A stretch of 64,000 nt of DNA from a virus. The notes under the pieces were generated by a model. That model did no database searches. It was given only the letters and a program-made list of their open reading frames with translations, and was not told the origin of the DNA. Made by a program: the position numbers and the translations under genes. How positions within the stretch are numbered: the stretch's first letter is position 1; each line of letters begins with the position of its first letter. Positions 7,250 through 63,515 of this stretch are shown here, in pieces. The stretch covers positions 18,406 through 82,405 of the IMG/VR virus record IMGVR_UViG_3300006947_000007, one strand, 5' to 3'.

Positions 7250-7278
7250 ATTATACACTAGTCTAGGCCAAAAGTCAA
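7250..7278 (-). promoter_or_regulatory. Sigma70-type promoter (D) with palindromic upstream site
   Basis: On the minus strand TTGACT (7278-7273), a 17-nt spacer beginning TTTGGCC, and TATAAT (7255-7250), about 27 nt before the ATG at 7216 after the expected start point. A perfect 14-bp palindrome, AAAAGACGTCTTTT, lies just upstream at 7282-7295. It could be an operator. Confidence 0.8.
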
Positions 7279-7320
7279 CCGAAAAGACGTCTTTTTTTCA
7301 TCTAATTTAAGGATTTGTGG

Positions 7321-8214: not shown

Positions 8215-8582
8215 AACGGTACTTGAATATAATCATCTTCTTCTAAGTCGGGTGGTGTTAGAAGCTCTAATGTTATATGTTGCTCAACTGCTAAAGCATA
8301 CTCGTCAGCTAGTTGTTTAAGATGTGGATGTTTTTCTTCCATTTCTACATTACGGTCCAAATCTGCTGGAATACCTAATGCCCTTTCTATTCGCTGTAGG
8401 CGATAATTAACTTGGTCTAGTTCAGTATTGTCTTCTGCTAAATCTGAAAGCCTGGCTTTAAGAAATGGTTCATTAGCAAAGTCTATTCCTGATTCGGAAG
8501 TCATATATTTAATTGAGTTGCTATCTTCATTGTAATAACTATCTATGTCTAGTATATACTGGCCGTGTTCATCTGGGTTCAT
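8211..8582 (-). CDS. Hypothetical acidic protein
   Basis: 123 residues, acidic, with a probable helical middle (EDNTELDQVNYRLQRIERAL). No recognised family. It is coupled by 4-base overlaps to the radical SAM gene upstream and the SGNH gene downstream, so probably acts with them. Confidence 0.55.
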   Translation of the reverse strand: MNPDEHGQYILDIDSYYNEDSNSIKYMTSESGIDFANEPFLKARLSDLAEDNTELDQVNYRLQRIERALGIPADLDRNVEMEEKHPHLKQLADEYALAVEQHITLELLTPPDLEEDDYIQVPF

Positions 8583-9874
8583 TTTGTTTCTCCTAATTCG
8601 ATCCTTTCTTCTTTCTTAGATCTTAGTGATGTAGCAATTGATCCACAGTTATCAATACAAATATTAAGCCTAGGCTTATCGGGATCATCTGTTTTATTAT
8701 CCCAACTATCATGTAAATCCTTTTGAAAGAATTTATGATGTAAGATATCTTCTAATGTATGATGACTTGTATAGTTCCACTTCTCATCATACTTGTTAAC
8801 ATAGTAATTTTGGTATTCGTTATCAGGCTGTCCTTGTTCGTTTGCTGAATCCTTGTTCCAAGGTCTACCAAAGTATGCTGTCATATGGCAACAAACATGG
8901 ACTCGTCCGTCCCATTCAATTTGTAGCTTTCCTTCATTGCCCCACTGACACCAAATGCTACAATTATTAGCATAGTCGTCCATATCGTTGTTAAACTCTT
9001 CGACAACAATTTTCTTTGCTTTTACTTCCATTTCTTTGTATGCTTCTGTAGTGTGACTGTGTTCGGCACCGTCGGACATGTCTTTCTTTTTTACCTTGCT
9101 AAAGCCATCAACTTCATAACTTGTTTCTTTGTCTTCCACAGTCATAACACCTGTTCTAATTGCTTCTTCTCTTAGTGTGTTAGAAATGTGTTCTGCCATT
9201 CTACTACGTCTAATATCAAACCTGGAGAATCCATATTCTTTTGCTAGTTTTTGAGCATCTTGTATCTGATGTTTGTTATGATCAAATTCTATAAACTGCC
9301 ATACTGCTACACCACCAGCATCCATAAACCACTTAGCTCTTTCTAATACTTTTTCGTAAGGTACACCCCTACGATACATTTGGTGTGTCTTATCGTCTGT
9401 GCCTTCTAAAGCAAATATAACTTCAGAGTTGTTAGGGTTATATCGTTCACTGGCAATCTTGCCTAGTTCAGTCCAAAATGCTTTATCTCTTACACCACCG
9501 TTTGTGCTAATCCATAAGTCAGTACGTCGGTTACGACCGTTTGCTTCACGCTCTGCTTTTTGTGAATCACTAACGTCTGCTATATGGTGTAAGATTTCAA
9601 TCAAGTCTGGGTGCATTATACAGTCACCAAACGTGCCATTAAAGTCTAATGTTTTAAGACCTCCCATTACTGTAGGAGTAAACACATTTTTAACAGTTGA
9701 CAACGGCATGTTACCCTTATGTCCTACTTGTATAGCAGGATTGATATCACCTTCTTTAAGTCCTAGTCGTGGAACATCTGACGATACACGCCTCAAGCAT
9801 CCAGGACAGAAACTATTACAGTTGGCTGTAATATCTATTGTAATTCTTCTAAGTTTTTTAGGGTCTAAGAACAT
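8579..9874 (-). CDS. Radical SAM enzyme with C-terminal Cys-rich (SPASM/twitch-like) region
   Basis: 431 residues. The [4Fe-4S]/SAM motif CNSFCPGC sits at C19, C23 and C26. The C-terminal region has further Cys (CSIWCQWGNEGKLQIEWDG, then VHVCCHM, then NICIDNCG), the arrangement of auxiliary-cluster SPASM/twitch domains. It overlaps the Asp-hydroxylase-like gene upstream by 1 base and the small acidic gene downstream by 4. One of at least ten such proteins in the window. It resembles the one at 39132-40178 most (same N-terminal plan). Substrate unknown. Confidence 0.85.
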   Translation of the reverse strand: MFLDPKKLRRITIDITANCNSFCPGCLRRVSSDVPRLGLKEGDINPAIQVGHKGNMPLSTVKNVFTPTVMGGLKTLDFNGTFGDCIMHPDLIEILHHIADVSDSQKAEREANGRNRRTDLWISTNGGVRDKAFWTELGKIASERYNPNNSEVIFALEGTDDKTHQMYRRGVPYEKVLERAKWFMDAGGVAVWQFIEFDHNKHQIQDAQKLAKEYGFSRFDIRRSRMAEHISNTLREEAIRTGVMTVEDKETSYEVDGFSKVKKKDMSDGAEHSHTTEAYKEMEVKAKKIVVEEFNNDMDDYANNCSIWCQWGNEGKLQIEWDGRVHVCCHMTAYFGRPWNKDSANEQGQPDNEYQNYYVNKYDEKWNYTSHHTLEDILHHKFFQKDLHDSWDNKTDDPDKPRLNICIDNCGSIATSLRSKKEERIELGETK

Positions 9875-21236: not shown

Positions 21237-22472
21237 CTATTCAATTAATTCGTGGTAGTGAGGGAAATGATCAGAGAATGATATTTTTCTTCTTTTCTCT
21301 AATATTTCAAATTGCTTCTTTGCTAATTGCTTAGCCTCTGTACTTACCTTACCGCTAACCATAGATTTCATATCCCGTAGAACCGATATGTATCCTTGTT
21401 TATCGTCAAATGTTCCAGACATGTCGATAAAATAATCTATTTGTTCTTGTATTGTGTTAGTGTGGCTAGGGTCTAAACCTAACACAGAAAGCCACAACGG
21501 ATCTTGTACCCGATTATGGTGCATTATTATTTCTTTATCGTAATCAAATTTATTAATTTTCTCATTCAAATATATCAAAAAATCCTTAAAGTATGGTAGA
21601 CTTAAACTGTTATGAGCACAGCCAAATCCTAATATTAAATTTTTAGTTTCTTTTGATTGTTTAAAGAACGAGTCTACATTTTGGTTCCATTTATCAAAGT
21701 CCAGGCCCCATCTAATTAGTTCACTCCTCTTACCTAATGCTTCTCCGGAAAGTTGCATTTCATAACGAATGTTTGGGGTTCTCTTCACTAGCTCTATAAA
21801 CTTATCATACTTGTGTTTCGGAAAGTTTAAATTGGTTGTAACAACTAGTACAACTTCTTGCCCGTCGGTTATAGTGTCATTAATGTTAACTATAAATTCT
21901 TCTATAAATTGATACATGTGATTTGTAAAGAATGGTTCGCCACCTAATAAACTAAAGGTTATAAAATCTTTATGTTTAAGAGTACTGTTCCACCATTCAT
22001 TTAATAATTGAAGTACTTTTTCAAATATAGCATCCTCTGTATCTGGGAATCGTCTACCTGTTTCTTTCTGCCAACGGCTACTCTGACCTTCCCAACAATA
22101 GGCACATGCCATATTACATTTGTTTGTTAGTTCGAGTTCAACAAACTGAAATAGATCAGATGACAAGTCTAATTTTTTATTAAATAAGGGATTGTTTTTG
22201 CGAATATGCTCAGTTCTTGTACTAGTACCGCTCGCTTCTTCTGATTTCCAGCACCCAGAACAATCTGCGGATTGTATGCCGTTGCTTAATTCATATTTTC
22301 TTTTTTGTAGCGTTGGGTGATTGAGTAAGAAATCTAAGCCTTTTGCTTCTAATATATCTAAATCAAATGTAACTTCAGCTCGCTGATCTTCTGTTAATTC
22401 TGTCTTACAACACCAGTTGACTGTTTTATTTGGCAGAGATATAATAAGATCGTTCCAAGTTTTGAAACACAT
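21237..22472 (-). CDS. Radical SAM enzyme with SPASM/twitch-like Cys region
   Basis: 411 residues from the ATG at 22472. A GTG at 22517 inside the upstream gene would add 15. The start MCFKTWNDLIISL followed by NWCC matches the family's N-terminal C..W...CC block. SAM/cluster motif CNMACAYC, SAM-binding LLGGEPFF, and an extra CSGCW motif before the radical SAM domain. It lies 16 bases after an A-type Fe-S carrier and near a ferredoxin, suggesting coordinated Fe-S supply. Substrate unknown. Confidence 0.85.
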   Translation of the reverse strand: MCFKTWNDLIISLPNKTVNWCCKTELTEDQRAEVTFDLDILEAKGLDFLLNHPTLQKRKYELSNGIQSADCSGCWKSEEASGTSTRTEHIRKNNPLFNKKLDLSSDLFQFVELELTNKCNMACAYCWEGQSSRWQKETGRRFPDTEDAIFEKVLQLLNEWWNSTLKHKDFITFSLLGGEPFFTNHMYQFIEEFIVNINDTITDGQEVVLVVTTNLNFPKHKYDKFIELVKRTPNIRYEMQLSGEALGKRSELIRWGLDFDKWNQNVDSFFKQSKETKNLILGFGCAHNSLSLPYFKDFLIYLNEKINKFDYDKEIIMHHNRVQDPLWLSVLGLDPSHTNTIQEQIDYFIDMSGTFDDKQGYISVLRDMKSMVSGKVSTEAKQLAKKQFEILEKRRKISFSDHFPHYHELIE

Positions 22473-22488
22473 TGTATCCGCATGATGT

Positions 22489-22821
22489 TCAGACTGCAAA
22501 TGACTCGCCGCACCCACAACTTGAAGTTGCTTGGGGGTTCTTAACTGCTAGGAACGATCCGCCTAGTTCTTGAACATAGTCAATAACACTACCCAAGACG
22601 TACATTTCAGCAAGTTTATTAATCATTAATCTATTATCGGAATCGTCGCTTAGTTGTACTTCGATCCATTCGTCTGGGTCTGTGATTTCATTGGCAAACT
22701 TCCAGTCGTATGTAAATCCACTACAGCCACCACCTTTTATAGTGAATGTGGCATATTTCTTATCATTTGTTGTTGTGGCGTTTAGCAAATAATCCTTTGC
22801 TTTGTCAGTTACGTCTATCAT
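22489..22821 (-). CDS. iscA-like: A-type Fe-S carrier (IscA/ErpA/HesB-like)
   Basis: 110 residues with the three conserved cysteines of A-type carriers: GGGCSGF (first) and the C-terminal CGCGESF pair. These proteins deliver [2Fe-2S]/[4Fe-4S] clusters to apo-enzymes. It is placed directly before a radical SAM gene and after a ferredoxin gene, so a role in maturing phage Fe-S enzymes is likely (inference). A second carrier is at 54806-55132. Confidence 0.88.
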   Translation of the reverse strand: MIDVTDKAKDYLLNATTTNDKKYATFTIKGGGCSGFTYDWKFANEITDPDEWIEVQLSDDSDNRLMINKLAEMYVLGSVIDYVQELGGSFLAVKNPQATSSCGCGESFAV

Positions 22822-24714: not shown

Positions 24715-25179
24715 TTAAAATTCGTGTGTATAATTAGCGTAATACTTAACGTTATCTATCATCCAGCTTATTGTTGAATGAGAGTAAACTTCCTGCCTAG
24801 ATTCTTCATATCTAGTTTGTACTGTACAAATTGTTTGAGTTTGCCCGTTAGTAGTTGGCTTATTCTTGTTAGCTACATCGGCACCAATGATAGCACCTAA
24901 TATAGTTGCGGCATCGTTACCTTTGCCTTTACCTACTTGGTTACCAATAACACCGCCAATGATAGCACCAAACAATACATCGGCACTTGAAGCGCCAGTA
25001 CCATTAGTGTACACTTGCTTACAAACTTCAACATTGTACGGTACTTGGCTTATTACTGTTTTCATATGATGATAAACATTAGGCCTTTCTACTCTTCCCG
25101 AATTTAAATCAGCCATTGCTGACGCGGCTACCAATGTTAACATTGTACTAGCAATTATTACTTTGATTGTATTTTTCAT
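24715..25179 (-). CDS. Exported glycine-zipper (17 kDa surface-antigen-like) protein
   Basis: 154 residues with a signal peptide ending ASAMA. A glycine zipper follows: LFGAIIGGVIGNQVGKGKGN then ILGAIIGA. A Cys pair (VCKQ, ICTV) brackets it. This is the layout of Rick_17kDa/glycine-zipper-2TM envelope proteins, usually in or near the outer membrane. Its own promoter lies upstream (25214-25241), suggesting early expression and a role in altering the host envelope. Confidence 0.8.
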   Translation of the reverse strand: MKNTIKVIIASTMLTLVAASAMADLNSGRVERPNVYHHMKTVISQVPYNVEVCKQVYTNGTGASSADVLFGAIIGGVIGNQVGKGKGNDAATILGAIIGADVANKNKPTTNGQTQTICTVQTRYEESRQEVYSHSTISWMIDNVKYYANYTHEF

Positions 25180-25213: not shown

Positions 25214-25241
25214 ATTATACACTATACAGGCCAAAAGTCAA
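25214..25241 (-). promoter_or_regulatory. Sigma70-type promoter (E)
   Basis: TTGACT (25241-25236), 16-nt spacer starting TTTGGCC, TATAAT (25219-25214). Upstream AAAAAAGACG is shared with promoter D, while the GCAA...TTGC element of promoters A-C is missing. A NATAAATA-like element also occurs at 25296-25303, before this promoter. Confidence 0.78.
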
Positions 25242-25301
25242 CCATTTTCTCGTCTTTTTTGTCAATATAACCTGTTGATTTTACTAGATTATATATATTT
25301 A

Positions 25302-33198: not shown

Positions 33199-33227
33199 AT
33201 TATACACTCATTAAGGCCAAAAGTCAA
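33199..33227 (-). promoter_or_regulatory. Sigma70-type promoter (C) with upstream operator
   Basis: TTGACT (33227-33222), 17-nt spacer starting TTTGGCC, TATAAT (33204-33199). Immediately upstream (about 33228-33266) is the element shared with promoters A and B: ATCAATGACTTAC, then GGCAAATAAGATGC. Expected start about 33192. Confidence 0.85.
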
Positions 33228-33292
33228 CCAAAAAAGCATCTTATTTGCCACGGTAAGTCATTGATACTACTACATTTTCAATCTTTTTTTGG

Positions 33293-35650: not shown

Positions 35651-36035
35651 CTACTGGCTCACTAATTACTCTCCGCCAGCTGAGACCGTTGTAGAAATAT
35701 AGATCTTGTGTGTCGGAACAATACATTACCTGGCCAGGTAATGCTGGAAATGGTAAATTGCCAGACCTAGTAGGTTTTAATGCTATATGATTTGTTACTA
35801 TACTGTTGGCATCAAATTCGTTGAATACAACAACTTCTCCAGATGCCTTAACTACTAATTTGTTATCGTTATTTTTATCAGCTACAGATAGTATAGCCAA
35901 TGACTTAGGATACGTTGGGTCACCTGCCTTAATCCTAAGACCCATTCCTGCGTCATTTATATTATGTATAGTTAAGCCGTAGTCTTCTGTGCTAATATCT
36001 ATTATTGATTCTGGTAAGTCCTTCCTCTCACTCAT
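35640..36035 (-). CDS. Virion-type beta-rich protein
   Basis: 131 residues from the ATG at 36035, overlapping the radical SAM stop. An upstream start would add 44 residues inside that gene and is rejected. The end LPGQVMYCSDTQDLYFYNGL is a common terminus of phage fibre/structural proteins. It is odd to find a structural-type ORF amid the radical SAM block; it may be the substrate of the modifying enzymes (speculation). Confidence 0.5.
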   Translation of the reverse strand: MSERKDLPESIIDISTEDYGLTIHNINDAGMGLRIKAGDPTYPKSLAILSVADKNNDNKLVVKASGEVVVFNEFDANSIVTNHIALKPTRSGNLPFPALPGQVMYCSDTQDLYFYNGLSWRRVISEPVDET

Positions 36036-37185
36036 AACTAGTGTCTCCCGGAAACAATGGTAATTTAGTTCCTGGTGCTCGTTTAGGTATCTTACTATCT
36101 GCTGAACTAACACATGAAGGACTAATACAAGGCATAGGTTTACTAAACAACTTAAAGCCTGTTTCAATGTTTCCTAACGGTACATCCTTGCAACTGTAAC
36201 TTCTTTTTACACTACCATCCGGTTCTCTAATAATAATACTACGATACCCTGAACTACATTCCCAGTCGGTGAACTTATTAAAGTTAAAAGCATTAAATCT
36301 TTCTGCTTGATCCATGTACCATTCCTTATGATTACTATCCTTAAACTCTACTTGGAAGTGTTGTGGCACACTCTCCTCACCAAAGTTTTTATATATAGGA
36401 TCAGGTGCTCTCATAAATGTAGGTGTGGGTCTTTCTACATTTATATTTTTAGATTCAGTAAATGCCCGCTGTGGCATTCCGTTGTGTAACCTTTCAAGCA
36501 TGTCTTTAGTGTAACCGTCGACAACCTTAGACGCTGTTGGATCTGATTGAGGCTTGAGCGTAACGTTAATACCTCTATTGTGGAAATATAACGATTCTTC
36601 CCATAGGTCTTCGAACCATTCGGGAACCATAACTTGGTTAATTGTGACTTGGACATCGTGTTCCTGGACGAAGCAAAGTTTATCGGCGAAGTCTTCTCGT
36701 TTCTCTTGTGTGTTAACGTGTTCCCTGTGGTATGAGGCTGTAATACTGGCTCTATGGAACGCTGATACAATTTTGACATATTTTTCAAACCATTTCATAT
36801 TTCTCGACATGTTCGTAGTCATGTGTACACTAGTAAAATTAGTGTTGCTTACGTCATCTGCCAAGTGTTTCATTATATCTAAATAGCCAGGATGGAACGT
36901 TGGTTCACCTCCACTTAAACTAAAGTGAAAACTGTTAAATCCACGTTCACGTGCTTGGCGCTTAATCTCATCAACTGTTGTTAAACATAACTCAGTAGGC
37001 CTGAAATCTTTCTTATCACTTCTAGCATACGGCCAACAGTAAGAACATTTGTAGTTACAAAAACGTCCTAGTAACCAACTAACTGAAAACATATCTCTAT
37101 ACAGCATAGTTCGTTGTCCTACTCTAACTAAATCGTCAAAGGGGACTTTACTAAAATCGTAGTTGCTCCATTTTAAATCATTCAT
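36028..37185 (-). CDS. Radical SAM enzyme
   Basis: 385 residues. Cluster motif CNYKCSYC at C43, C47 and C50, SAM motif FSLSGGEPTFHPG, and a Cys-rich C-terminus (ECSSGYRSIIIREPDG, SYSCKD, MPCISPSCV) that would hold an auxiliary cluster. It overlaps the next enzyme by 8 bases. Confidence 0.88.
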   Translation of the reverse strand: MNDLKWSNYDFSKVPFDDLVRVGQRTMLYRDMFSVSWLLGRFCNYKCSYCWPYARSDKKDFRPTELCLTTVDEIKRQARERGFNSFHFSLSGGEPTFHPGYLDIMKHLADDVSNTNFTSVHMTTNMSRNMKWFEKYVKIVSAFHRASITASYHREHVNTQEKREDFADKLCFVQEHDVQVTINQVMVPEWFEDLWEESLYFHNRGINVTLKPQSDPTASKVVDGYTKDMLERLHNGMPQRAFTESKNINVERPTPTFMRAPDPIYKNFGEESVPQHFQVEFKDSNHKEWYMDQAERFNAFNFNKFTDWECSSGYRSIIIREPDGSVKRSYSCKDVPLGNIETGFKLFSKPMPCISPSCVSSADSKIPKRAPGTKLPLFPGDTSYE

Positions 37186-38362
37186 TTAATAACTCCTTTG
37201 CCCACGGAAACATATCTCGATACTTAATGGGGTTATTAAAATCCCATAGTTGAACACTCGTATATAGTTCACGGCGTTCTTGGTTAGTAATTTCCCGTAC
37301 ATCATTCTTTATCCGATGAAGTAGTGTATGGTAACTGTTGCTAACATTTGTGGGGAAAGCAAAGTTGTCTAGTTGTTCTATTAGATTAGTTCGATACTTC
37401 ATCGGAATTAGTTCCCAATTAAGGCAGGTAGGATAGTCGATATCATTCCATTCGATTTTACAAGTGATATTATCTTCTTTAATCCAGTTGAAAAACTCAA
37501 CGATTCCGAACAAATTTAAATGACTCCAACACGGTGTAATAGAAGTTGTTATTCCGTGCTCTAATAATATATTGTAATTTCTTTTTACTGATTTCCATCT
37601 TACTGGATAGCGTTGATATTCGATCCATTTGTCTACACCATCTATGCTACAGCCGATACTGGCACTATCGAATTGTTTAAGTATATCTAAGACATAAGTT
37701 TTCACTGTAGTACAGTTTGTTAAGAAGAACGTATGTAAGTCTGTGCGGCCCGCTTTGATTAGTTTTATTAATAGTTCTTCTACTTCTGGCATTACAAACG
37801 GTTCACCACCAGCAAATTTTATTTCTTTAATATTCTCATTGTTTAAAATAAATTCATATAAGCCTTTAACAGGATCAATATAACCAACACTACTGTAATA
37901 TACAGCATTTTCATCCTTAGCAAATTGAATATCTAAAACGCCTGCCTCTGTAGCTGATACTATATTCTTTGCTATTTGGTCACTGTTGCCGGAGTAACAC
38001 ATCTTACATTGTAAGTTACATTTATTCGAAAGACGCACATCTATTATTTCTAATACAGGAGTATCAAAAGGATCTATTCTGCGTTCTTTATATAATTTAT
38101 TTGATTCTTGCCTTTTAGATATAGATCCACTGTCTTCTAATTTCCAACATGACACACAGCTCGACGGCCTAGTATCTGTTAGAAACTCATGCCGTATATT
38201 ATTTAATCCCTCATCAGTATGGAACCAGTTGTTCGATCCGCTAAGAGGTGTTCCCTTGTAACTATCTGTTTGTATACAGCAAGACTTATATCCGGGTGTA
38301 GTGTCGCCCGAATTATGATCTATATATAGTTCTCTGAACGGGATATAACAAAAGTTTTTCAT
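37178..38362 (-). CDS. Radical SAM enzyme (twitch type)
   Basis: 394 residues. The N-terminal block FCYIPFRELYID then SCC, and SCVSCWKLEDSG, then the cluster motif CNLQCKMC and FAGGEPFVMPEV. This order (C..P...CC, CxxCW, CNLxCxMC, GGEP) recurs in 40367, 43980, 46826 and 62259, showing paralogy. Overlaps both neighbours by 4-8 bases. Confidence 0.88.
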   Translation of the reverse strand: MKNFCYIPFRELYIDHNSGDTTPGYKSCCIQTDSYKGTPLSGSNNWFHTDEGLNNIRHEFLTDTRPSSCVSCWKLEDSGSISKRQESNKLYKERRIDPFDTPVLEIIDVRLSNKCNLQCKMCYSGNSDQIAKNIVSATEAGVLDIQFAKDENAVYYSSVGYIDPVKGLYEFILNNENIKEIKFAGGEPFVMPEVEELLIKLIKAGRTDLHTFFLTNCTTVKTYVLDILKQFDSASIGCSIDGVDKWIEYQRYPVRWKSVKRNYNILLEHGITTSITPCWSHLNLFGIVEFFNWIKEDNITCKIEWNDIDYPTCLNWELIPMKYRTNLIEQLDNFAFPTNVSNSYHTLLHRIKNDVREITNQERRELYTSVQLWDFNNPIKYRDMFPWAKELLNE

Positions 38363-39135
38363 AGTGTCCTCATAAACGATATCCTCACGCCACCTTTCAT
38401 AATAAAATTACCTGCGGTAGATTCGTGTACTTGCGCGGTGTCGAATACAAGTAACGACCCCGGTGACCATTTAAAATCCCTTTCAATTGTTAGTCCTTTA
38501 TGGTATTCTTTATCAGTTATTCCTATCCTGGCCATCTCTTTTTGTTTCATTTTCTCATCACCAATAACAGTAGGTCTGCGATTAACATCGTACACATCCT
38601 TAATAGCAGTATAATCTGTTGAGGAGTCGTAGTGCGAAGTAGGCACAGTTGAGCCGTGATCTAATGTTGTGCCTACATCTGCTATACGTTGATCATAGAA
38701 TACTATACGGCAGTTGCTAGTGTCTGGTTGTAAGTATAGTGGGATTAATACACTCTTGTAGGGTGTATTTTGATGTTCCCAAGCACCGCGTTCTGGCATG
38801 TCAGTATGTATACCGTATTGGTGCGGTGTGTGAAAGAAATTACCCTGTACGCTAGTAACAATGTCAAAATCAATATACTGTGATAACTTTTCTTTTAGGA
38901 TATTAACTAATTCGTCAAAGTTCCCTGCTGTCATTAGCAATCCACTAGTGTTTCCTAGCATCCACTCATCTGTTTTATTGTACATAAAATCTGTTAGTGT
39001 TTCTAATTCATCTTCTGAAAACATATCTTCATGACATTCGGCTACAGAGAAGTATTTTGTTAATTCATCGGGATATTCGGAACGCCACTTATGATCAGCG
39101 TGTGCTTTAAGTTCGGTATTATGTCCTATAGTCAT
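38359..39135 (-). CDS. 2OG-Fe(II) oxygenase
   Basis: 258 residues. HQYGIHTDMPERG carries the HxD, and SPGSLLVFDTAQVHESTAGN the distal His, with GGVRISFMRTL giving the 2OG-binding Arg. Good overall match to the dioxygenase fold. It sits between two radical SAM genes with 4-base overlaps, so likely in the same pathway. Confidence 0.8.
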   Translation of the reverse strand: MTIGHNTELKAHADHKWRSEYPDELTKYFSVAECHEDMFSEDELETLTDFMYNKTDEWMLGNTSGLLMTAGNFDELVNILKEKLSQYIDFDIVTSVQGNFFHTPHQYGIHTDMPERGAWEHQNTPYKSVLIPLYLQPDTSNCRIVFYDQRIADVGTTLDHGSTVPTSHYDSSTDYTAIKDVYDVNRRPTVIGDEKMKQKEMARIGITDKEYHKGLTIERDFKWSPGSLLVFDTAQVHESTAGNFIMKGGVRISFMRTL

Positions 39136-40178
39136 ACTGCTACCCAGGCCTCTTCTTGCTCTATGTGGTTATTCATTGTCCATGCATTGCCCTTACATAC
39201 ATTCCAGCATACTTTATATTCACAACCACTTTTCTTTTCCCATTCCTCCTTAAACTGTTCAAATACACCATGTTGTAATATAAACTGTAGTGTATTCTTT
39301 TCTGCTAAGTTAAATCCTTTATTATAATGATTAAACAAATAAGGATTATCTGTTTTAAATTGTTCTGGATAACCGATGTGGCTTTTACAATAACGTTGAC
39401 TAGTATAACAGCAAGGCCATATTCGTCCTTCACCGTTTAAATAAATTCTACTTAATTCTAAGGATTTACAACCTATGGCTTGATCGTTTGTCACTACATC
39501 AACTGTGTTTGCTCGTATATCTTCTGCTTGTGCAGTTGTATATTTAACTCCATTAGCACCCGGATGCGAGTTTAATGATTTGTATAATGCAGGTGGTGGT
39601 CTCATGCTCATTCTAGAATCAAATCTAGCAAACCTATAAGACTTTGCTAATTGACTAGCTTCTGTTGTTTGGTGTTTGTTATGCTCAAATATTAGCCATT
39701 TCCATGTTGCCTTGCCGCCTGCTTCAATAAACGTTGTAAAGTTTTGTTTAAGTTTTGTCCAATCTACATTAACTCTGTATATGTGATTAGTATCTTCTAG
39801 TCCGTCTATGCTAAATGTACAGTCAACTCTAGGTATCTTTGCGAGTTTTTGCCAAAACTCATTGCTTCTAAGTCCACCATTAGTATCTATAAACACTTTA
39901 CTAACACCCAAGTCCACCCATGTCTGAATACCTTCTAGTATCCTAGGGTTCATTAACGGATCGCCTAGATTACCGCATAGGTGTATTTCTAATTCGTTTA
40001 TATTAGGTATTTGTTTAATTACTTTTGTTACTATGTCAACATCTAGATGTTCTTCAATTAAATTGGGTAATTTATCACTGGTTCCCCAATAATGTCTACT
40101 ACAGCCAGGGCATGCCGCATTACAGTATGTAGATAATTCTACTTCTAATTGTTTTATTTTATCTAGTTCAATAAACAT
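39132..40178 (-). CDS. Radical SAM enzyme with SPASM-like C-terminus
   Basis: 348 residues. Cluster motif CNAACPGC at C19, C23 and C26. C-terminus IWPCCYTSQRYCKS and CEYKVCWNVCKGN supply SPASM-type Cys. Resembles the protein at 8579-9874 (CNSFCPGC start, same plan), forming a separate subfamily from the CNLxCxMC group. Confidence 0.88.
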   Translation of the reverse strand: MFIELDKIKQLEVELSTYCNAACPGCSRHYWGTSDKLPNLIEEHLDVDIVTKVIKQIPNINELEIHLCGNLGDPLMNPRILEGIQTWVDLGVSKVFIDTNGGLRSNEFWQKLAKIPRVDCTFSIDGLEDTNHIYRVNVDWTKLKQNFTTFIEAGGKATWKWLIFEHNKHQTTEASQLAKSYRFARFDSRMSMRPPPALYKSLNSHPGANGVKYTTAQAEDIRANTVDVVTNDQAIGCKSLELSRIYLNGEGRIWPCCYTSQRYCKSHIGYPEQFKTDNPYLFNHYNKGFNLAEKNTLQFILQHGVFEQFKEEWEKKSGCEYKVCWNVCKGNAWTMNNHIEQEEAWVAV

Positions 40179-40179
40179 G

Positions 40180-40380
40180 TCATTCTTTGCCCCATTCTAT
40201 TTTATCCCATACTCGTTCATGAATATAATACAAAATAGCCATACCAAATAAAGAAACAACAAACCAACCAGTCTGTTCCCAATTACCTGTTATAATATAA
40301 CTTACTATTGTTAAAAGAACTATAACAATAATTCTCCATGATATTGTTTTAACAATAGATCTTTTTTTAGTGTCCATCAA
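40180..40380 (-). CDS. DUF2061 membrane protein
   Basis: 66 residues matching DUF2061: KRSIVKTISWRIIVIVLLTI at the N-terminus, ending ILYYIHERVWDKIEWG. Two membrane helices. Function unknown, common in bacteria near sulfur-assimilation and membrane genes. It sits between two radical SAM genes. Confidence 0.8.
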   Translation of the reverse strand: MMDTKKRSIVKTISWRIIVIVLLTIVSYIITGNWEQTGWFVVSLFGMAILYYIHERVWDKIEWGKE

Positions 40381-41680
40381 ACAGTTCCTTATACTGCGGT
40401 GTAACCATTAATATGTTTTGTTTTCTTTCTTGGTCTAAGTACTTTGTAAACTTAATAAATTCAGGCATTTTATCTGAATAGTCTTCAGCGTCCATATAGT
40501 TTGTTACACTATCTAATATTTTATTAAACTTTTGTTTAACATTGTCATCTATTGTTGTATCTTTATCTAATTTATCTTTATAATAATTGTAATGTTCGTG
40601 GACATCTTGTTTTAATTCTTTATTTAATAATCTAATATTAGCACGTTTAGGACCGTGAGCTACGTGATGTGTTATAACAGGCTTACTGCTACTTGAATTA
40701 ATCTTTTTATATCCTGATTCTTTTAATTTCCACATCATAAATTCAGGTAAATGAAATATATTATATGCTGTAACAGTAAAGGCAATCCAGGCAACAACAT
40801 TCTTAGGTAAATTATCTAACTTTTCTAAGTTTGCTTTTGCCTGTCGCCATTTAACTGGCCAACGTTGGTATTCTATCATCGGCCCCATTCCATCTATACT
40901 AGCACCGACTCTTATTTGTTTAAATTCTTCCCACATTTTTAATACTCTAGGTGGAAGTGATGTCATATTCGTATTATATTCAATCATTATATTTTTAGCA
41001 CACCCCGAATCAATACATCTCTGTAAGAATTCATAATGACGTTCGATCATCATCGGTTCGCCGCCTGCCATATAAACATGTTCAATATAAGGAATATTCT
41101 TTTCCATTTGTTCCCAAAATGTTTCTGAATTATGCCAATCATAGTCAGTTGTTTCTAACCTTCCTTTAGCATTACGTTTAAGTTCCACGGTTCCGTGTGT
41201 ATCTTCGTACGTTGTTCCTCCGTGGTACCCTAGCCATTGTTCGTACCATGTGTGACTATCAGTTGGGCCACACATCCTACAGGCTAGATTACATAAGTTT
41301 CCGAAACGTAAATCGTAATACTGGTTGCGAACTGTGATGCTACCGTCAGGTGCTGTATCACGAACAGCGGACTCGTAATCATATTCCCAATGCTCTAATT
41401 CGTACAACCTTCGGCTTTGTAATCCTGCTTCTTCTTCAGATTTACAGCGACCGCACTCCTCACTCCAACGACCTGCTAACATATTTTTACGAACTATCTT
41501 CATTAGGTCAGCGTTCTTGGCATCATCAAAGTTATCACGGCCAGCATTAAAACTGGTACCGTCTGGGTGTCTTACTACGCCCTGATTCTTAGTCACATTG
41601 GCTTGACAACATATTCTAATGTCTCCATTGTTTCTAACTGCTTGGAAGTTCCAAGGTATCGGGCAAAATGTTTTACTCAT
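40367..41680 (-). CDS. Radical SAM enzyme (twitch type)
   Basis: 437 residues. FCPIPWNFQAVRNNGDIRIC then C at the N-terminus, CGRCKSEEEAG, cluster motif CNLACRMC, and VYMAGGEPMMIE. Of the same plan as 37178, 43980, 46826 and 62259. It overlaps the GAG paralog upstream by 8 bases. Confidence 0.88.
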   Translation of the reverse strand: MSKTFCPIPWNFQAVRNNGDIRICCQANVTKNQGVVRHPDGTSFNAGRDNFDDAKNADLMKIVRKNMLAGRWSEECGRCKSEEEAGLQSRRLYELEHWEYDYESAVRDTAPDGSITVRNQYYDLRFGNLCNLACRMCGPTDSHTWYEQWLGYHGGTTYEDTHGTVELKRNAKGRLETTDYDWHNSETFWEQMEKNIPYIEHVYMAGGEPMMIERHYEFLQRCIDSGCAKNIMIEYNTNMTSLPPRVLKMWEEFKQIRVGASIDGMGPMIEYQRWPVKWRQAKANLEKLDNLPKNVVAWIAFTVTAYNIFHLPEFMMWKLKESGYKKINSSSSKPVITHHVAHGPKRANIRLLNKELKQDVHEHYNYYKDKLDKDTTIDDNVKQKFNKILDSVTNYMDAEDYSDKMPEFIKFTKYLDQERKQNILMVTPQYKELFDGH

Positions 41681-43259: not shown

Positions 43260-43987
43260 GTTAGTATTTCCGTTAATTTAGGTATTATAGCCTCGGCAAA
43301 CTTTTTATGACTCTTTGCTCCGGGGTGTTTATCTTTGTAATCATCATTAGCATACGTTGGACTATTTCGTTGTATACCTACGCCAGGTATAAAGAACTGC
43401 TTATGGCATAGGTGTTGAGCATAATTAAATGCAGAAACATCGTAATGATCTTTACATAGTAGTTCATCGCTTTCAACATAAGCATAAGGAATCTTTAAAT
43501 TACCTAGATATTGTTCTGCGATACCTACTTCTTTATATAAATTAATTAATTGTTGTGCTTTATTAATATATAATTTATTGTGGGCGTTAATTAATGATTT
43601 ATCTATTCCATTAGTAGTACTTGCCCATGTACTGTTAGAGAAGTTAGGTTGTTTATCTTCACTCCAGTTTAAATGTATAACACCGTCGTCAGCAATATAA
43701 CTTACGTTTTCTTTATTACTAACCACGTCAGTAAAATATTCATTTCTATTAGCATTTGGCCATTGTATAAACACAAAGTCAGGATAGCCGTGTACGGGGT
43801 TATCTAAGTATTGTAATAATATTCTATTAACCGTGCTAGGACTTGCTCCTGGTATTGCTAAATTAATTAATTTATTAAATCCTAATTGTTCTTTTAATTG
43901 TATAGTATAACTATTATATCTTATGCCATACTGTATGTGATGACCTAAATGACTATAGCTACAGCCTAGTACTAATAAATTACTCAT
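43256..43987 (-). CDS. SGNH hydrolase-like protein
   Basis: 243 residues. Block I LLVLGCSYSHLGHH (Ser in GCSYS), then NLAIPGASPSTVNRIL (Gly/Asn region), then FVFIQWPNANRNE and C-terminal HPGAKSHKKFAEAII carrying the block V His. A third SGNH-type protein in the window, divergent from the two at 7321 and 26063. Confidence 0.7.
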   Translation of the reverse strand: MSNLLVLGCSYSHLGHHIQYGIRYNSYTIQLKEQLGFNKLINLAIPGASPSTVNRILLQYLDNPVHGYPDFVFIQWPNANRNEYFTDVVSNKENVSYIADDGVIHLNWSEDKQPNFSNSTWASTTNGIDKSLINAHNKLYINKAQQLINLYKEVGIAEQYLGNLKIPYAYVESDELLCKDHYDVSAFNYAQHLCHKQFFIPGVGIQRNSPTYANDDYKDKHPGAKSHKKFAEAIIPKLTEILT

Positions 43988-45245
43988 TTAAAAATTCCTT
44001 TAATTTAGGAAATACCGTTTCCCAATTCTCTTGTCTTACTACATCTACTACTCGCTCGTGTTTATTAAAGTTCGCTAGTGCTGACGTTGTGATTAAAGAA
44101 TCCATTATATGAGCAAGGTCTAACGTTTGTAAACTATTCTTTAATTCTGTTAAAGAATGCCATACTTGATTTTGCCACTTGCTACTTACTCCTTCATCAG
44201 CAAAATTAAATGAGTTAAAATCCTCATCAATCAATTCTAATAACCTAGTCTTCTGCTTATTATTTAAGCAATATACACTTAGGTGTGACGGTTCGCTTAA
44301 TCGTGCTGTATTAAGAAAGAATGACTCTTTATCATTTAATATGCTTTTATCTATATACATAGTACACCAATCTATAAACTCTCTATAGTATAACACATTA
44401 TAGAGGCTTTGTGTGTGCGATACGCCAATATATATGTTTTTATTTTCGTTATGTAGTTTACAGTACCAAGCAACAGCTTCTTCTACCTTACTCCAATTAC
44501 TCTTCTTACGCATAAACTCGCCACGTTTGCCTATGCCATCTAAGGACATATTAAGGAATACTGTATTAAACTTATTAAAGTTTTTAATATATTTGTTTTT
44601 AGGAATGAATGTAGCATTAGTAAAGATGTCTAATGTAATGTTCTTAGCAAAACCCCAATCAACTAAGCGTTGTAGGAACTCTGCTAGGTATTCACTAAGG
44701 AATGGTTCACCACCTGTTACTTTAACTTCATTTAAGTATTTACAGTCGTCCTTAGATAAGTTAAGCATTGTGTCTATTGTCTTAGGTATTGCCTTATCCT
44801 GTTCCCAGGCTTCATTGTTACCATAAAACCATTTAACCAAATGATCCGATGCTTCTAAGTCTTCATCCCAACTTGTACTTAATACTGGGTCACATATACG
44901 ACATTTAAGGTTACAGTAGCGTCCTGTTGTTATTTCTAAGTAAGTCAACACTCCTTTTATCTCTGGAGAGTTCGGCTTAACACTACGATTAAACTTATCA
45001 TATGGTAATAGACTGCTTGTTCGCATACTAGTATTACTAGAGTCTTCTTCTACTTTACAGCGTAAACAACCATTATCCCATATACCATTAGCCATGTTAT
45101 CTCTAGGCGTACTATATAACTCTTTGAATTCAATAGGATTATCTACGTATTCACTATTGCCTGTGTAACGACAACAAGGCTTAACACTACCGTTAGGTTC
45201 TATCATCATTCCATGCTCTAAATACTTACATACTATCGCGGTCAT
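43980..45245 (-). CDS. Radical SAM enzyme (twitch type)
   Basis: 421 residues. CKYLEHGMMIEPNGSVKPCC N-terminal block, CLRCKVEEDSS, cluster motif CNLKCRIC, and VTGGEPFLSEYL. Standard plan of the subfamily. Overlaps the SGNH gene by 8 bases and the GAG gene by 4. Confidence 0.87.
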   Translation of the reverse strand: MTAIVCKYLEHGMMIEPNGSVKPCCRYTGNSEYVDNPIEFKELYSTPRDNMANGIWDNGCLRCKVEEDSSNTSMRTSSLLPYDKFNRSVKPNSPEIKGVLTYLEITTGRYCNLKCRICDPVLSTSWDEDLEASDHLVKWFYGNNEAWEQDKAIPKTIDTMLNLSKDDCKYLNEVKVTGGEPFLSEYLAEFLQRLVDWGFAKNITLDIFTNATFIPKNKYIKNFNKFNTVFLNMSLDGIGKRGEFMRKKSNWSKVEEAVAWYCKLHNENKNIYIGVSHTQSLYNVLYYREFIDWCTMYIDKSILNDKESFFLNTARLSEPSHLSVYCLNNKQKTRLLELIDEDFNSFNFADEGVSSKWQNQVWHSLTELKNSLQTLDLAHIMDSLITTSALANFNKHERVVDVVRQENWETVFPKLKEFLNE

Positions 45246-46825: not shown

Positions 46826-48028
46826 CTATATACGAGGATTAACCCGTTCGAAATAAGTTTGACGTTGGTTGTCTAATAGAGCCGTATATGCCCTAAACTT
46901 TGGTACTAACTCTGGTTGATATGGTATTGAGTCTGACCATTTTATCAGCTCTTCACATCGCCTTGGAAAACTTTTTTTGACTACACTAATCATACGCTCA
47001 CGTTCACTATAGGGGACCACTGCAAGCCCTAAAAAGCCCTGATCAACTGGTTGTATGACTAATTCACAATGGCCTTGAATAGATCCATCCTTATTAAACT
47101 CGCTTTTCCACTTGTCGCAGTACTTTATAACGTCTAATACAGCCGACCAGTTCCAGGCTTGTAACACGAAGTGAAACGATACGATAGAACTCAGCCTGCC
47201 CCATTGTGTCCGTAGTAAGTGTTCTACAGCATTATCAAACCTATCCCACTTAGCAGGTGTTCTAATGTATTCATATTCCGAGCCGGTACCATCTATGCTA
47301 AGAGTCCATGACACTTGCGCAAACTTCTTCAAGTATGGTTGTATGTTATTAAATTGTACAGGTGTAGAAGCATTGGTTGTTATATCAACCTTACTGTGTT
47401 CATTGTATTCCATCTTGTCTAGTATACTGTACACTTCTTTTTGTATTGTAGGTTCTCCCCCTAGTAGCTTTAAGTTGACTACCTTGTTTAACTCTGGTAG
47501 TTCGTAATGCTTCCTCTGTGAAAATTTCGCTAACTCGTCGTTATCAAAGTTGTTCTCTAGTGTTATATTTGCAATGCCATTTGGTTCTTGTAACTTGAGC
47601 CATTCCCTCGCGATTTCTGTGCTGTTATCGGGGTAACACATGCGACACTTTAAGTTACATAGGTTACTAGGGCGTATATCTGCCCAACGAGGATCTGGCA
47701 TTGTTAATTCTAATGGTTCGTCAGGATCTATAGTATCACTATGTACAGCAGATTCATACCAGGCATCGAACATATGACGATCAGACTCTAGTCCTATGTC
47801 CTCTCTTTCTTTACATTGGTGACATGTTGAGTGCCATTCACCTTCTAGCATAGACTTTCTTATGTCCTGTGCTAGAGGATTATTGAATACATCATCCATT
47901 TCATTGCTAGTTAGCTCGTGCCGGCCGGTATTCATACAGCATACACGTGACTCTTTAGACGAGGCCCGGAGGTAAACGTTGTAGAATGGAGCATAGCATA
48001 GAGGTTTGGAGGGCTTTTCGGTTGACAT
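46826..48028 (-). CDS. Radical SAM enzyme (twitch type)
   Basis: 400 residues. LCYAPFYNVYLRASSKESRV then CC, then CHQCKEREDIGLESDR, cluster motif CNLKCRMC, and LKLLGGEPTIQKEVY. Very similar to the protein at 62259-63515. The + strand promoter P1 (48022-48050) overlaps its start codon, so the two transcripts diverge. Confidence 0.88.
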   Translation of the reverse strand: MSTEKPSKPLCYAPFYNVYLRASSKESRVCCMNTGRHELTSNEMDDVFNNPLAQDIRKSMLEGEWHSTCHQCKEREDIGLESDRHMFDAWYESAVHSDTIDPDEPLELTMPDPRWADIRPSNLCNLKCRMCYPDNSTEIAREWLKLQEPNGIANITLENNFDNDELAKFSQRKHYELPELNKVVNLKLLGGEPTIQKEVYSILDKMEYNEHSKVDITTNASTPVQFNNIQPYLKKFAQVSWTLSIDGTGSEYEYIRTPAKWDRFDNAVEHLLRTQWGRLSSIVSFHFVLQAWNWSAVLDVIKYCDKWKSEFNKDGSIQGHCELVIQPVDQGFLGLAVVPYSERERMISVVKKSFPRRCEELIKWSDSIPYQPELVPKFRAYTALLDNQRQTYFERVNPRI

Positions 48029-48127: not shown

Positions 48128-48156
48128 TTGACATTGGCCACAAAGTGTGCTATAAT
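48128..48156 (+). promoter_or_regulatory. Sigma70-type promoter P2, + strand
   Basis: TTGACA (48128-48133), 17-nt spacer starting TTGGCC, TATAAT (48151-48156). Upstream GCAAATAAGATGCTTTTTTG matches promoter C's operator. Expected RNA start near 48163. Drives the gene at 48191. Confidence 0.85.
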
Positions 48157-48190: not shown

Positions 48191-48448
48191 ATGAATATTA
48201 AAGAAGGAAAGTATACACACAAGGTAACTCTGTCACATTATAGAGGCCATACTGTAACAAGGTACACAAACGACCCTGAAACTAGGGGCGAAGTACTGTT
48301 AGATCACGGGTACAAACCTCTAGAGGGCCAAACAGAACTGTTATTTGAACAGATTAATCCTGTTATGGACCAAGTAGAGTTGGAACCTATGATAGATACA
48401 ACCAATTCAGAGGTAGTATCTAGCATGGATCTTGGCGAAACTGCTTAA
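48191..48448 (+). CDS. Hypothetical small early protein
   Basis: 85 residues from the ATG at 48191 (strong AGGAGGCTAT). An upstream ORF start lies inside promoter P2 and is rejected. No recognised family. Followed by a run of hairpins. Confidence 0.6.
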   Translation: MNIKEGKYTHKVTLSHYRGHTVTRYTNDPETRGEVLLDHGYKPLEGQTELLFEQINPVMDQVELEPMIDTTNSEVVSSMDLGETA

Positions 48449-48466: not shown

Positions 48467-48571
48467 GGGGCTTATGCCCCTAGTTTGCTAAGGATGTAGT
48501 CGATATTGTAAAAGTCGACTACATCGTGCTGAATATATGGCCGAAATACCCTTACTATTTGTGTGGGTATT
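48467..48571 (+). terminator. Three hairpins after the early gene (terminator-like cluster)
   Basis: Hairpin 1: GGGGC/GCCCC (48467-48480). Hairpin 2: GATGTAGTCGA/TCGACTACATC, 11 perfect base pairs (48493-48525). Hairpin 3: AATACCC/GGGTATT (48545-48571). Hairpin 3 is repeated at 50126-50152. None has a strong T-run. The hairpins separate two early transcription units. Confidence 0.5.
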
Positions 48572-48635
48572 GGAAAATAAATGAATAACCTAGCGTTATC
48601 AATGACTTACATCGGCAAATGAGTTGCTATTTTGG

Positions 48636-48664
48636 TTGACTTTTGGCCTTTTTGACTGTATAAT
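48636..48664 (+). promoter_or_regulatory. Sigma70-type promoter (A) with upstream operator
   Basis: TTGACT (48636-48641), 17-nt spacer starting TTTGGCC, TATAAT (48659-48664). The 38 bases upstream (from 48598) contain ATCAATGACTTAC, then GCAAATGAGTTGC, nearly identical to promoter B (62156-62184) and similar to C. Confidence 0.87.
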
Positions 48665-48695: not shown

Positions 48696-49109
48696 ATGTA
48701 TAAAGAAAATGGTAAACCGGTTAAAAAGTTCTTCTTAGAATTAAAATATGATACATTTGTTGGTAAACCCAAGCAAGAAGTCATTAAACAGTTCGAAGAT
48801 ACCTACACAAAGGACAGCGTTGTACGTTGGACTAAGTCAGATAACGTAGTTCCAGAAGACTTTTTATACGATTTCAGAGACTTAGGTCTTATACCTACCG
48901 AGTTTATCCAGATATCTTTGGACGCTAAGACTGTTGATATGGAAAAACATGTCGGCGAATACATACAGTCCATGAAAGACTTTAAGAAAAACAACCCTGA
49001 GGGTTGGGCGGAACAACAAGCCGAGATGATGTTTGAAGCATCAGCGGCAATGGGACCAGGCGAAGAGATGGTTAACATCTTTACTGGCGATACTTTTACA
49101 ACAAGATAA
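48696..49109 (+). CDS. Hypothetical early protein
   Basis: 137 residues. AGGAAATGG lies before the ATG. Alpha/beta protein with YDTFVGKPKQEVIKQFEDTY and a helical C-terminal half. No family recognised. First gene of the transcription unit from promoter A. Confidence 0.6.
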   Translation: MYKENGKPVKKFFLELKYDTFVGKPKQEVIKQFEDTYTKDSVVRWTKSDNVVPEDFLYDFRDLGLIPTEFIQISLDAKTVDMEKHVGEYIQSMKDFKKNNPEGWAEQQAEMMFEASAAMGPGEEMVNIFTGDTFTTR

Positions 49110-55300: not shown

Positions 55301-55329
55301 TTGACAACAGCGGCTGTTTGCAGTATACT
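55301..55329 (+). promoter_or_regulatory. Sigma70-type promoter, near-leaderless downstream gene
   Basis: TTGACA (55301-55306), 17-nt spacer, TATACT (55324-55329). The ATG at 55339 is only about 3 nt after the expected start point. Confidence 0.78.
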
Positions 55330-55338
55330 AACAACACT

Positions 55339-55797
55339 ATGAGAATATCTAAAGAGTTCGAAAGCAGTTTAGAATTCGGCGACAAGCTAGAGAAGAACTA
55401 TGCTCTTACAGTGATCCAGAAGATACATCCTAAGTGTACTATACACGAACCAGAAGAGTATAGAGAAGATGGATTAGCAGTTCCTGATCATATAGTAAAG
55501 AAGGGTAAAAAAATTGTAGCCTTTTATGATAGCAAGAACAAGCGAAGCACATATAAAGTAAGAGGCGTACCAGAAAGATTCTGGAGCGTAGATGAGAAAC
55601 TATTAGAGTATAGAACGTATGCTCTAAAACATAAAGTTCCATGCTACTTGTTATTTTACAATAAGAGTAGTGATAAAGAGAATGTGTACATTGTTGATGT
55701 TACAGTTGAACCTAAATTCTACAAACGAATTAATAACAGATTTGGAGAACATTGGTTCGGCTACTACATATCACAAACAACACCATATGCGATATGA
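55339..55797 (+). CDS. PD-(D/E)XK nuclease-like protein
   Basis: 152 residues from the ATG at 55339 (an earlier start would lie before the transcription start). The nuclease core reads VPDHIVKKGKKIVAFYDSKN, with PD then D-x-K, followed by KVPCYLLFYN, a typical later strand. It is basic and small, like Holliday-junction-resolvase-fold or host-DNA-degrading enzymes. Substrate unknown. Confidence 0.65.
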   Translation: MRISKEFESSLEFGDKLEKNYALTVIQKIHPKCTIHEPEEYREDGLAVPDHIVKKGKKIVAFYDSKNKRSTYKVRGVPERFWSVDEKLLEYRTYALKHKVPCYLLFYNKSSDKENVYIVDVTVEPKFYKRINNRFGEHWFGYYISQTTPYAI

Positions 55798-61856: not shown

Positions 61857-62122
61857 TAAGCCGCCTTTCGTAGTAGTGTTGCTGATACTCTCCACTTACC
61901 TCGACCAGTATCAACTGTTATGTTTTTAATTGCTTTCTTAGTAATAGTACCTTGTATAGTACCGCCCCTAGCATCAAACTCAACTGTATCGCCAACTTCA
62001 AAACCTCTAACACTACTTTTAGCAATGTAGGTTCTTCGATCTTTAATAGCACTTACTACAGCATTGATTTCATCACCGTTCATTTTAGTGATTTCTAGTA
62101 TTACTTTTGATAGATTTGACAT
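61856..62122 (-). CDS. Small phage protein with SH3/KOW-like domain
   Basis: 88 residues from the ATG at 62122. Upstream starts would precede the transcription start at about 62149. Helical N-terminus, then FEVGDTVEFDARGGTIQGTI and RGKWRVSATLLRKAA, a barrel like those in translation-associated KOW proteins. This type recurs in marine phages, as I recall. Expressed from promoter B. Confidence 0.62.
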   Translation of the reverse strand: MSNLSKVILEITKMNGDEINAVVSAIKDRRTYIAKSSVRGFEVGDTVEFDARGGTIQGTITKKAIKNITVDTGRGKWRVSATLLRKAA

Positions 62123-62155: not shown

Positions 62156-62184
62156 ATTATACACTAAGTTAGGCCAAAAGTCAA
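62156..62184 (-). promoter_or_regulatory. Sigma70-type promoter (B) with upstream operator
   Basis: TTGACT (62184-62179), 17-nt spacer starting TTTGGCC, TATAAT (62161-62156). From 62185 to about 62222 the upstream sequence (ATCAATGACTTAC, GCAAATGAGTTGC) is almost identical to that of promoter A about 13.5 kb away. Confidence 0.87.
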
Positions 62185-62258
62185 CCAAAATAGCAACTCA
62201 TTTGCCGACGTAAGTCATTGATAATATTAGGTATTTAAAAAAAGATGAAAAATAATTG

Positions 62259-63515
62259 TTAATTGGGTGCTTTTGGAGAAGGCAATGTGTCGTATATGTG
62301 TTCAATAAAGGAATAAACTATAGGCACATGGTCTTTAATATGCTGTTTCCTAGCAGTATCAAATGCCTTAGTTGCGTTGGCTAACATCCAGAGATTAGGT
62401 TTAGTGTAATCTGTTAATAATCCTTTTAGAAGTTTCTTAAGAGGTTTGTGTGATTCCTCCATTAATCTAACAACATACGGATCTGTAATGTTTAATATAC
62501 GTTCTATCTCGTTGTGCCTAGCGTTGACTGGCAAGTTGTTAACTGTGGCCCAGTTAGGTCCTTCTATATTATAGAACTCTACAGGTAACGTGATAGTTTC
62601 TAAATTAATTGCTTTGTTATAATCAGCTAACCAAAACAGAAAGTCATATACATTAAAAAGGTTTAATGCTTGTAATGTAAAATGTATTTGTCTATGTTCT
62701 GATAAGTTGACCCATTCGGTTATTACTTCTTGTGCTTTATTCCAATGCAACGGAGAGCGGATATATTCTAATGTTTTTCCTATGCCGTCGATGCTTAATT
62801 GTGCTCCTATACTACGAAACTTTTTAAGTTTGTCAAACATTGCTTTGTTATTAAAATTAGTACAGTTGGTTGTAATGTGTATGTTACAATTAGTCTTGTC
62901 AGCATCTATTAACGTGTCTAGCATTTGAGATACCTCTGGCATAATAGTAGGCTCGCCACCTAAGAATTTTATATCGCTATCATCTGTTAACCCAGATATT
63001 AAATGGTTTATATTATCTTTACTCATGACACTTGGAGAAAATTCTACTGTGTGCCCAGCCCACTTAGACAAGTAAGGGTTTTTCTTTTGCTCTTTATCTA
63101 GTTGACTACTATACTTGGGTGTACACATTCTACATTTTAAGTTACATAGGTTGCTCGGGCGTATATCGAGGTCTAACGGCGTGTTTAAATTGGTTCCAGT
63201 AACAACATTAAGTTCTGGACTGCTGTGCTTTTGATACTTCGCATCAAACATTTGTCTATCACTATCGATGCCATCTTCTTCTAAACTCCAACAACTAGAA
63301 CATATATCAAGTTTTTCACCTGCTAACATTCGTCGTCTAATGTCTTGGTAGTAATCACTTTGCCAATGATTCTCTAAATCCAATGATTCGACAGTATGTG
63401 TTCCTAATGGTTCGTTGCTAGTACAACACACTCGAGGCCCATCATTCGGGTGTATGTATTTGTGTATGAATGGAGCATAGCATATATTTTTATGATGCTT
63501 GGTATTACTCATCAT
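62259..63515 (-). CDS. Radical SAM enzyme (twitch type)
   Basis: 418 residues. ICYAPFIHKYIHPNDGPRVC then C, CSSCWSLEEDG, cluster motif CNLKCRMC and FLGGEPTIMPEV. Same plan as 46826-48028, and very close to the truncated gene that starts in the following 489 bases. It overlaps that gene by 4 bases. Confidence 0.88.
   Translation of the reverse strand: MMSNTKHHKNICYAPFIHKYIHPNDGPRVCCTSNEPLGTHTVESLDLENHWQSDYYQDIRRRMLAGEKLDICSSCWSLEEDGIDSDRQMFDAKYQKHSSPELNVVTGTNLNTPLDLDIRPSNLCNLKCRMCTPKYSSQLDKEQKKNPYLSKWAGHTVEFSPSVMSKDNINHLISGLTDDSDIKFLGGEPTIMPEVSQMLDTLIDADKTNCNIHITTNCTNFNNKAMFDKLKKFRSIGAQLSIDGIGKTLEYIRSPLHWNKAQEVITEWVNLSEHRQIHFTLQALNLFNVYDFLFWLADYNKAINLETITLPVEFYNIEGPNWATVNNLPVNARHNEIERILNITDPYVVRLMEESHKPLKKLLKGLLTDYTKPNLWMLANATKAFDTARKQHIKDHVPIVYSFIEHIYDTLPSPKAPN

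Follow-up and report, generated by a model that had tools for sequence, protein, structure and literature searches.

The early promoter PL of phage lambda has an upstream site for integration host factor (IHF), a DNA-bending protein, and this site affects transcription. The same holds for the early promoter Pe of phage Mu, on which IHF acts (PMC3820752), and at IS5/glpFK an upstream IHF site together with A-tracts activates the promoter in a phase-dependent manner (PMC2753651). The IHF consensus is given as WATCARNNNNTTR; the strongest sites have an A-tract to its left, the footprint measures 35 bp and the DNA is bent by ~160 degrees (PMC8421141; PMC9519438; PMC10380432). Early promoters of T4, composed of UP, −35, TGn and −10 elements, are thought to outcompete host promoters (PMC2988021). 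For T4-type phages, mobile promoter/stem-loop cassettes (PeSLs) have also been described (Arbiol 2010 and Comeau 2014, as summarised in PMC4503421).

The promoters considered here lie in a window of 64,000 nt, the whole stretch of DNA that was analysed, which corresponds to bases 18406–82405 of an 82,405-bp IMG/VR record. Lambda and Mu are temperate and have a single promoter of the IHF-dependent kind each, whereas several copies in strict register are found here in a virulent-type jumbo lineage; IS5/glpFK combines a transposon end with a host operon, whereas the present case is a phage promoter family. Near-perfect sigma70 elements, UP-like tracts and further conserved positions are shared with T4 early promoters, but no IHF site is described for those in PMC2988021, while a subset of the present promoters has an IHF-type site in a fixed place; a GG preceding the −35 and a GGCC within the spacer also set them apart from T4. 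Like PeSLs, as far as these are outlined in PMC4503421, the promoters are repeated, early-type and located at gene borders, with genes that swap behind a kept promoter; the terminator-like stem-loop beside the PeSL promoter is met only rarely here. Four of the promoters, A, B, C and E, are read as sigma70-type phage promoters with a built-in host IHF site and an UP element, at a probability of roughly 0.7.

Promoter family in the window

All fourteen −35/−10 promoters listed in a sequence-only reading of the window were located (for minus-strand promoters, the coordinate given there was the −10 end). Perfect TTGAC-N(16–18)-TATAAT occurred 14 times in the 82,405-bp record, compared with 0.57 expected from dinucleotide shuffles, and GG-TTGAC with at most one mismatch in the −10 occurred 12 times (0.37 expected from shuffles), with a comparable excess of the GG-preceded class in the related contigs G005, G009 and G024. 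The promoters are thus of sigma70 type, with TTGAC(A/T) and TATAAT at 16–18 bp above chance. A looser class (any TTGAC, up to one mismatch) gave 19 against 7 expected, so that its single members are less certain. GG was absent before the −35 in three of the fourteen (15368, 16259 and 46551). In 11 of 15 promoters traced to an ORF the start codon was 57–64 nt past the first T of the −35, hence the leader is short and regular. Early expression of the family is suggested by the sigma70-type sequence and by some of the target genes.

An IHF-type site was present in 4 of the 12 GG promoters of the record. In promoter A (plus strand) this site, TATCAATGACTTA, is located at 48597–48609, its ATCAA beginning 38 nt upstream of the −35, followed by an UP-like proximal element with two A/T tracts at 48615–48633 and by the core at 48636–48664 (−35 TTGACT, 48636–48641; GGCC, 48645–48648; −10 TATAAT, 48659–48664); it drives ORF 48696–49109 (137 aa; no Pfam or PHROG match). 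Promoter B (62156–62223, minus strand) has its IHF-type site at 62211–62223, the proximal element at 62187–62205, the −35 at 62179–62184 and the −10 at 62156–62161, and drives an 88-aa ORF starting at 62122. For promoter C (33199–33266, minus strand), which drives a 112-aa ORF from 33163, the corresponding positions are 33254–33266, 33230–33248, 33222–33227 and 33199–33204. Promoter E (25214–25280, minus strand) comprises the IHF-type site AATCAACAGGTTA (25268–25280), the proximal element (25244–25262), the −35 (25236–25241) and the −10 (25214–25219), and drives an ORF that starts at 25179 and encodes a glycine-zipper protein (PF05433).

Three further promoters have no IHF-type site: D (7250–7299, minus strand; proximal element AAAAAAAGACGTCTTTT, −35 7273–7278, −10 7250–7255), P2 (48107–48156, plus strand; proximal element as in C, −35 48128–48133, −10 48151–48156), which drives ORF 48191–48448, and P1 (48022–48050, plus strand; GG-TTGACA...TATAAT), in tandem upstream of P2. 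Judged by their sequence, D and P2 are members of the same promoter family minus the IHF site. Other promoters of the scan precede 5'-nucleotidase-like and MazG genes. The interval from the P2 gene's stop codon to promoter A contains strong stem-loops that lack a T run (48467–48480 and 48493–48525), perhaps for RNA processing or as a PeSL-like stem-loop. The window also contains many radical-SAM-like ORFs (CxxxCxxC; 8579–9874, 21237–22517, 36028–41680, 43980–45245, 46826–48028 and 62259–63515; translations judged by eye), interleaved with other enzyme-like ORFs.

Upstream region and spacer

Upstream of the −35, the block common to A, B and C had been noted before. Its distal half, ATCAATGACTTAC, is exact in these three, which are its only copies in the whole record and all lie within the window, and it fits the IHF consensus WATCAANNNNTTR. 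Its restriction to A, B and C was not borne out, since E has ATCAACAGGTTA, likewise 38 nt upstream of the −35; the distal site begins at exactly this distance in all four. The WATCAANNNNTTR core was matched without mismatch in A, B, C, E and 11 promoters of relatives and with one mismatch in one more. An A/T-rich tract stands 5' of the core, as at strong IHF sites; three A-tract positions were A/T-only in 23 of 27 promoters, the tract being broken by other letters in A and E.

A register scan covered 7 contigs and 76 loci with 321 promoters in total, nearly all collected by clamp-loader homology (G001 and G002 via the promoter core, not the distal site). Upstream of the 96 GG-TTGAC promoters, 13 consensus matches were found within 250 bp, nine of them at 38 nt and one at 39 nt, while the 225 non-GG promoters gave four scattered matches and scrambled controls 0–3. 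Spread over 248 offsets, the remaining three GG-promoter matches correspond to 0.024 expected at 38–39 nt. Homologous promoters in this peak are non-independent, yet as few as five independent ones would still lie far outside chance.

The proximal half reads GCAAATnAGnTGC in some promoters and AAAAAAGACGT in D and E. P2 had been said to share it, and it is indeed identical letter for letter to C over GCAAATAAGATGCTTTTTTGG. The element of D and E had been taken as a separate alternative; AAAAAAGACG is in register with GCAAATnAG, which makes it a variant of one element and not another operator. The proximal half is accordingly best read as one element in two versions, with two A/T tracts at about −52 and −41. 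Across 27 promoters the A+T fraction was 0.89–1.00 at −55 to −50 and 0.93–1.00 at −43 to −39, with a mixed middle in which −46 was G or C in 93%. GCAAATAAGATGC and AAAAAAGACGTC follow a common A/T-tract register, the right-hand tract being of A or T. Positions about −52 and −41 are the distal and proximal UP subsites, where the alpha-CTDs of RNA polymerase bind. With A/T tracts at these subsites, the proximal half fits an UP-like reading.

Two palindromic arrangements were considered for this region and discarded. The inverted-repeat-like GCAA-N5-TTGC is confined to A and B; the letters in C and P2 are GCAA-N5-ATGC. The second arrangement, the proximal dyad CCAAATA-N4-TATTTGG, has its centre 10 bp before the −35; loci L111 and L132 have it in perfect form, but its right arm is AAAA, not TTTT, in many relatives, and A/T tracts therefore fit better.

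In the spacer, the start TTTTGGCC is exact in A–E, as previously noted; in P2 and in the promoter at −316 the GGCC is shifted or its flanks are altered. Of the 15 promoters with an IHF-type site, 12 had GGCC at 2–4 letters from the spacer start; so did 9 of 35 GG promoters without such a site and 2 of 106 other promoters, against a chance expectation of 0.014 per promoter. The spacer GGCC is real and strongly enriched, and goes with the IHF-type site; part of its conservation may stem from shared descent.

Occurrence in related phages

The clamp loader encoded in the window and its counterpart in Pseudomonas phage PA5oct (287 kb) are 59% identical. G004, G005 and G009 are close relatives at 75–79% nucleotide identity. 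The 204-kb contig G024 has almost no sequence in common with the window; G002, however, aligns to G024 and to the window relatives G005 and G009, from which we infer that the window type and G024 are parts of one jumbo genome type. A stretch of ~440 bp at 55348–55784, inside ORF 55318–55797, is 80–83% identical in G004, G005 and G009, where it occupies another place and the opposite orientation relative to the flanking genes, and reads as a relocated gene.

The exact distal block gave no match in IMG/VR; N4 and the proximal half vary. The layout itself, ATCAANNNNTTR-N24-GGTTGAC-N17/18-TATAAT, was found in 37 IMG/VR stretches; a control layout with the site 5 bp closer (33 nt) gave 4 stretches, and 257 Gb of prokaryote genomes contained the full layout once. 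Four of the pattern matches (L107, L108, L136 and L143) look chance or unrelated, and the control distance gives about this number. Collection stretches and clade contigs together yielded 31 distinct promoters, which precede many unrelated genes, among them AAA+ ATPases, HEVGHALYTP-motif proteins and small proteins of no named function (these names were taken from the sequences, apart from those with a Pfam or PHROG citation). The arrangement was not found in PA5oct, Atu_ph07, HTVC008M, Phosso and Vibrio 2.275.O. The Pelagibacter phage HTVC008M (KC465899.1) has a promoter class of its own, TTGACTTT...TGTGATATAAT, in several copies, which resembles T4 early promoters.

Anchored on the AAA+ gene (phrog_1250) and with no condition on the promoter, the site was at 38 nt in all nine loci of at least 90% identity with upstream sequence, with four N4 words (TGGT, TAAC, CGAC, GGAT). 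AAA+ orthologs at 85% and near 65% identity were without the site, most of them keeping GG-TTGAC with TATTAT or TATACT. Eleven ortholog pairs showed changes at 0 of 55 positions in ATCAA and 0 of 33 in TTA, the letters that IHF contacts in its consensus, and at 20 of 44 in the four free letters N4 and 33 of 88 in the linker. The conditioned search supplied some of these pairs, whereas E/G005, B/G009 and G002/G024:11999 were unconditioned and the L218 pairs conditioned on one side only; pairs with a common member are non-independent. Distant homologs of the E gene (40–45% identity, L283 and L284) have a TTGAC promoter with no IHF-type site in the stretch examined.

Alternative explanations

The block had also been attributed to a DNA-binding regulator or to an UP-like or sigma-appropriation element. 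A conserved bound element upstream of the promoters is well supported, and an UP-like character fits the proximal half; sigma appropriation, or a promoter of the T4 middle type, is not supported, as a near-perfect canonical −35 is present and not a MotA box. MotA (PF09114) was not found, a weak result because the control set likewise gave no match. TATAAATA, the T4 late-promoter word, was three- to five-fold rarer than in shuffles in G000, G005, G009 and G024, a pattern suggestive of restricted use, and it was uninformative about timing. A regulator suits the distal half, but its sequence suggests IHF, an architectural protein of the host, and not a phage operator. It is considered unlikely that ATCAAyGACTTA is instead read by a phage-encoded activator or repressor, which might also use the proximal or GGCC element, and that it resembles an IHF site by coincidence only. 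N4 is biased, with YGAC common, which the plain IHF consensus does not ask for and which could be due to descent or another protein; the conserved GGCC and GACGT letters are accounted for by neither IHF nor alpha-CTDs, so that more than IHF may read the region, and GGCC tracks the site. Yet kept and free letters match the IHF consensus exactly, down to W and to an A-tract on the side where one is expected, and the same arrangement precedes unrelated genes in only distantly related phages.

Copying and shuffling of a PeSL-like promoter cassette between genes, with block likeness from recent copying and no bound protein needed, is less probable still as the whole explanation, although A and B blocks differ by one base and the G009 locus would fit such a swap. 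There, counterparts of P1, P2 and A lie at 14871, 14423 and 13891; identity amounts to 65% for the P2 gene and 33% (E 3e-7) for the gene after A, while no homology was detected for the gene directly behind A, between these conserved neighbours, and the IHF-type promoter is kept. This recalls PeSL shuffling. Copying alone would not spare ATCAA and TTA while N4 and linker change, and the terminator stem-loops that are part of PeSLs are mostly absent: by script, one was found within 200 bp in only 3 of about 50 GG promoters, which speaks against PeSLs as a general account (others were found by eye at L005:5487 and G002:22644). The module may well have spread by cassette copying, which complements the IHF reading more than it competes with it. 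A model in which HU, or curvature intrinsic to phased A/T tracts, acts with no IHF-specific contact would agree with A/T tracts at fixed places in 27 promoters, but ATCAA has its C in every case and N4 tolerates G/C, neither of which curvature needs; we regard this model as highly improbable.

Proposed function

The proposed IHF-assisted module comprises an A/T-rich tract, 8 bp and WATCAANNNNTTR (about −87 to −63), A/T tracts at −55 to −50 and −43 to −39, GG-TTGAC, a GGCC spacer and TATAAT, in a fixed register kept across diverged relatives and unrelated genes. Host IHF would bind the distal site and bend the DNA sharply, the two A/T tracts would serve the alpha-CTDs of polymerase as their UP element, and wrapping of upstream DNA onto polymerase by way of the bend would raise initiation soon after infection; activation is inferred here rather than repression. 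No gene of the IHF/HU family was found in 20 phage records (fragments, so that a gene elsewhere is possible), which makes host IHF the likely protein, its presence in the host being assumed. More tentatively, and rather doubtful as it stands, this marine jumbo and T4-superfamily phage lineage might use a three-part promoter, with host IHF, alpha-CTDs and a GGCC-reading factor working jointly, so that infection would respond to how much IHF the host has or to DNA supercoiling.

If the IHF reading is true, giant phages that show no lysogeny genes in the parts examined would rely on a nucleoid protein of their hosts as a permanent co-activator at several promoters, which to our knowledge is reported only for temperate phages. 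The signature WATCAANNNNTTR-N24-GGTTGAC would serve for finding such promoters in uncultured viruses and would hint that their hosts carry IHF, and the module, a compact promoter of natural origin whose IHF site is strictly placed, would be suited to probing how bending helps polymerase.
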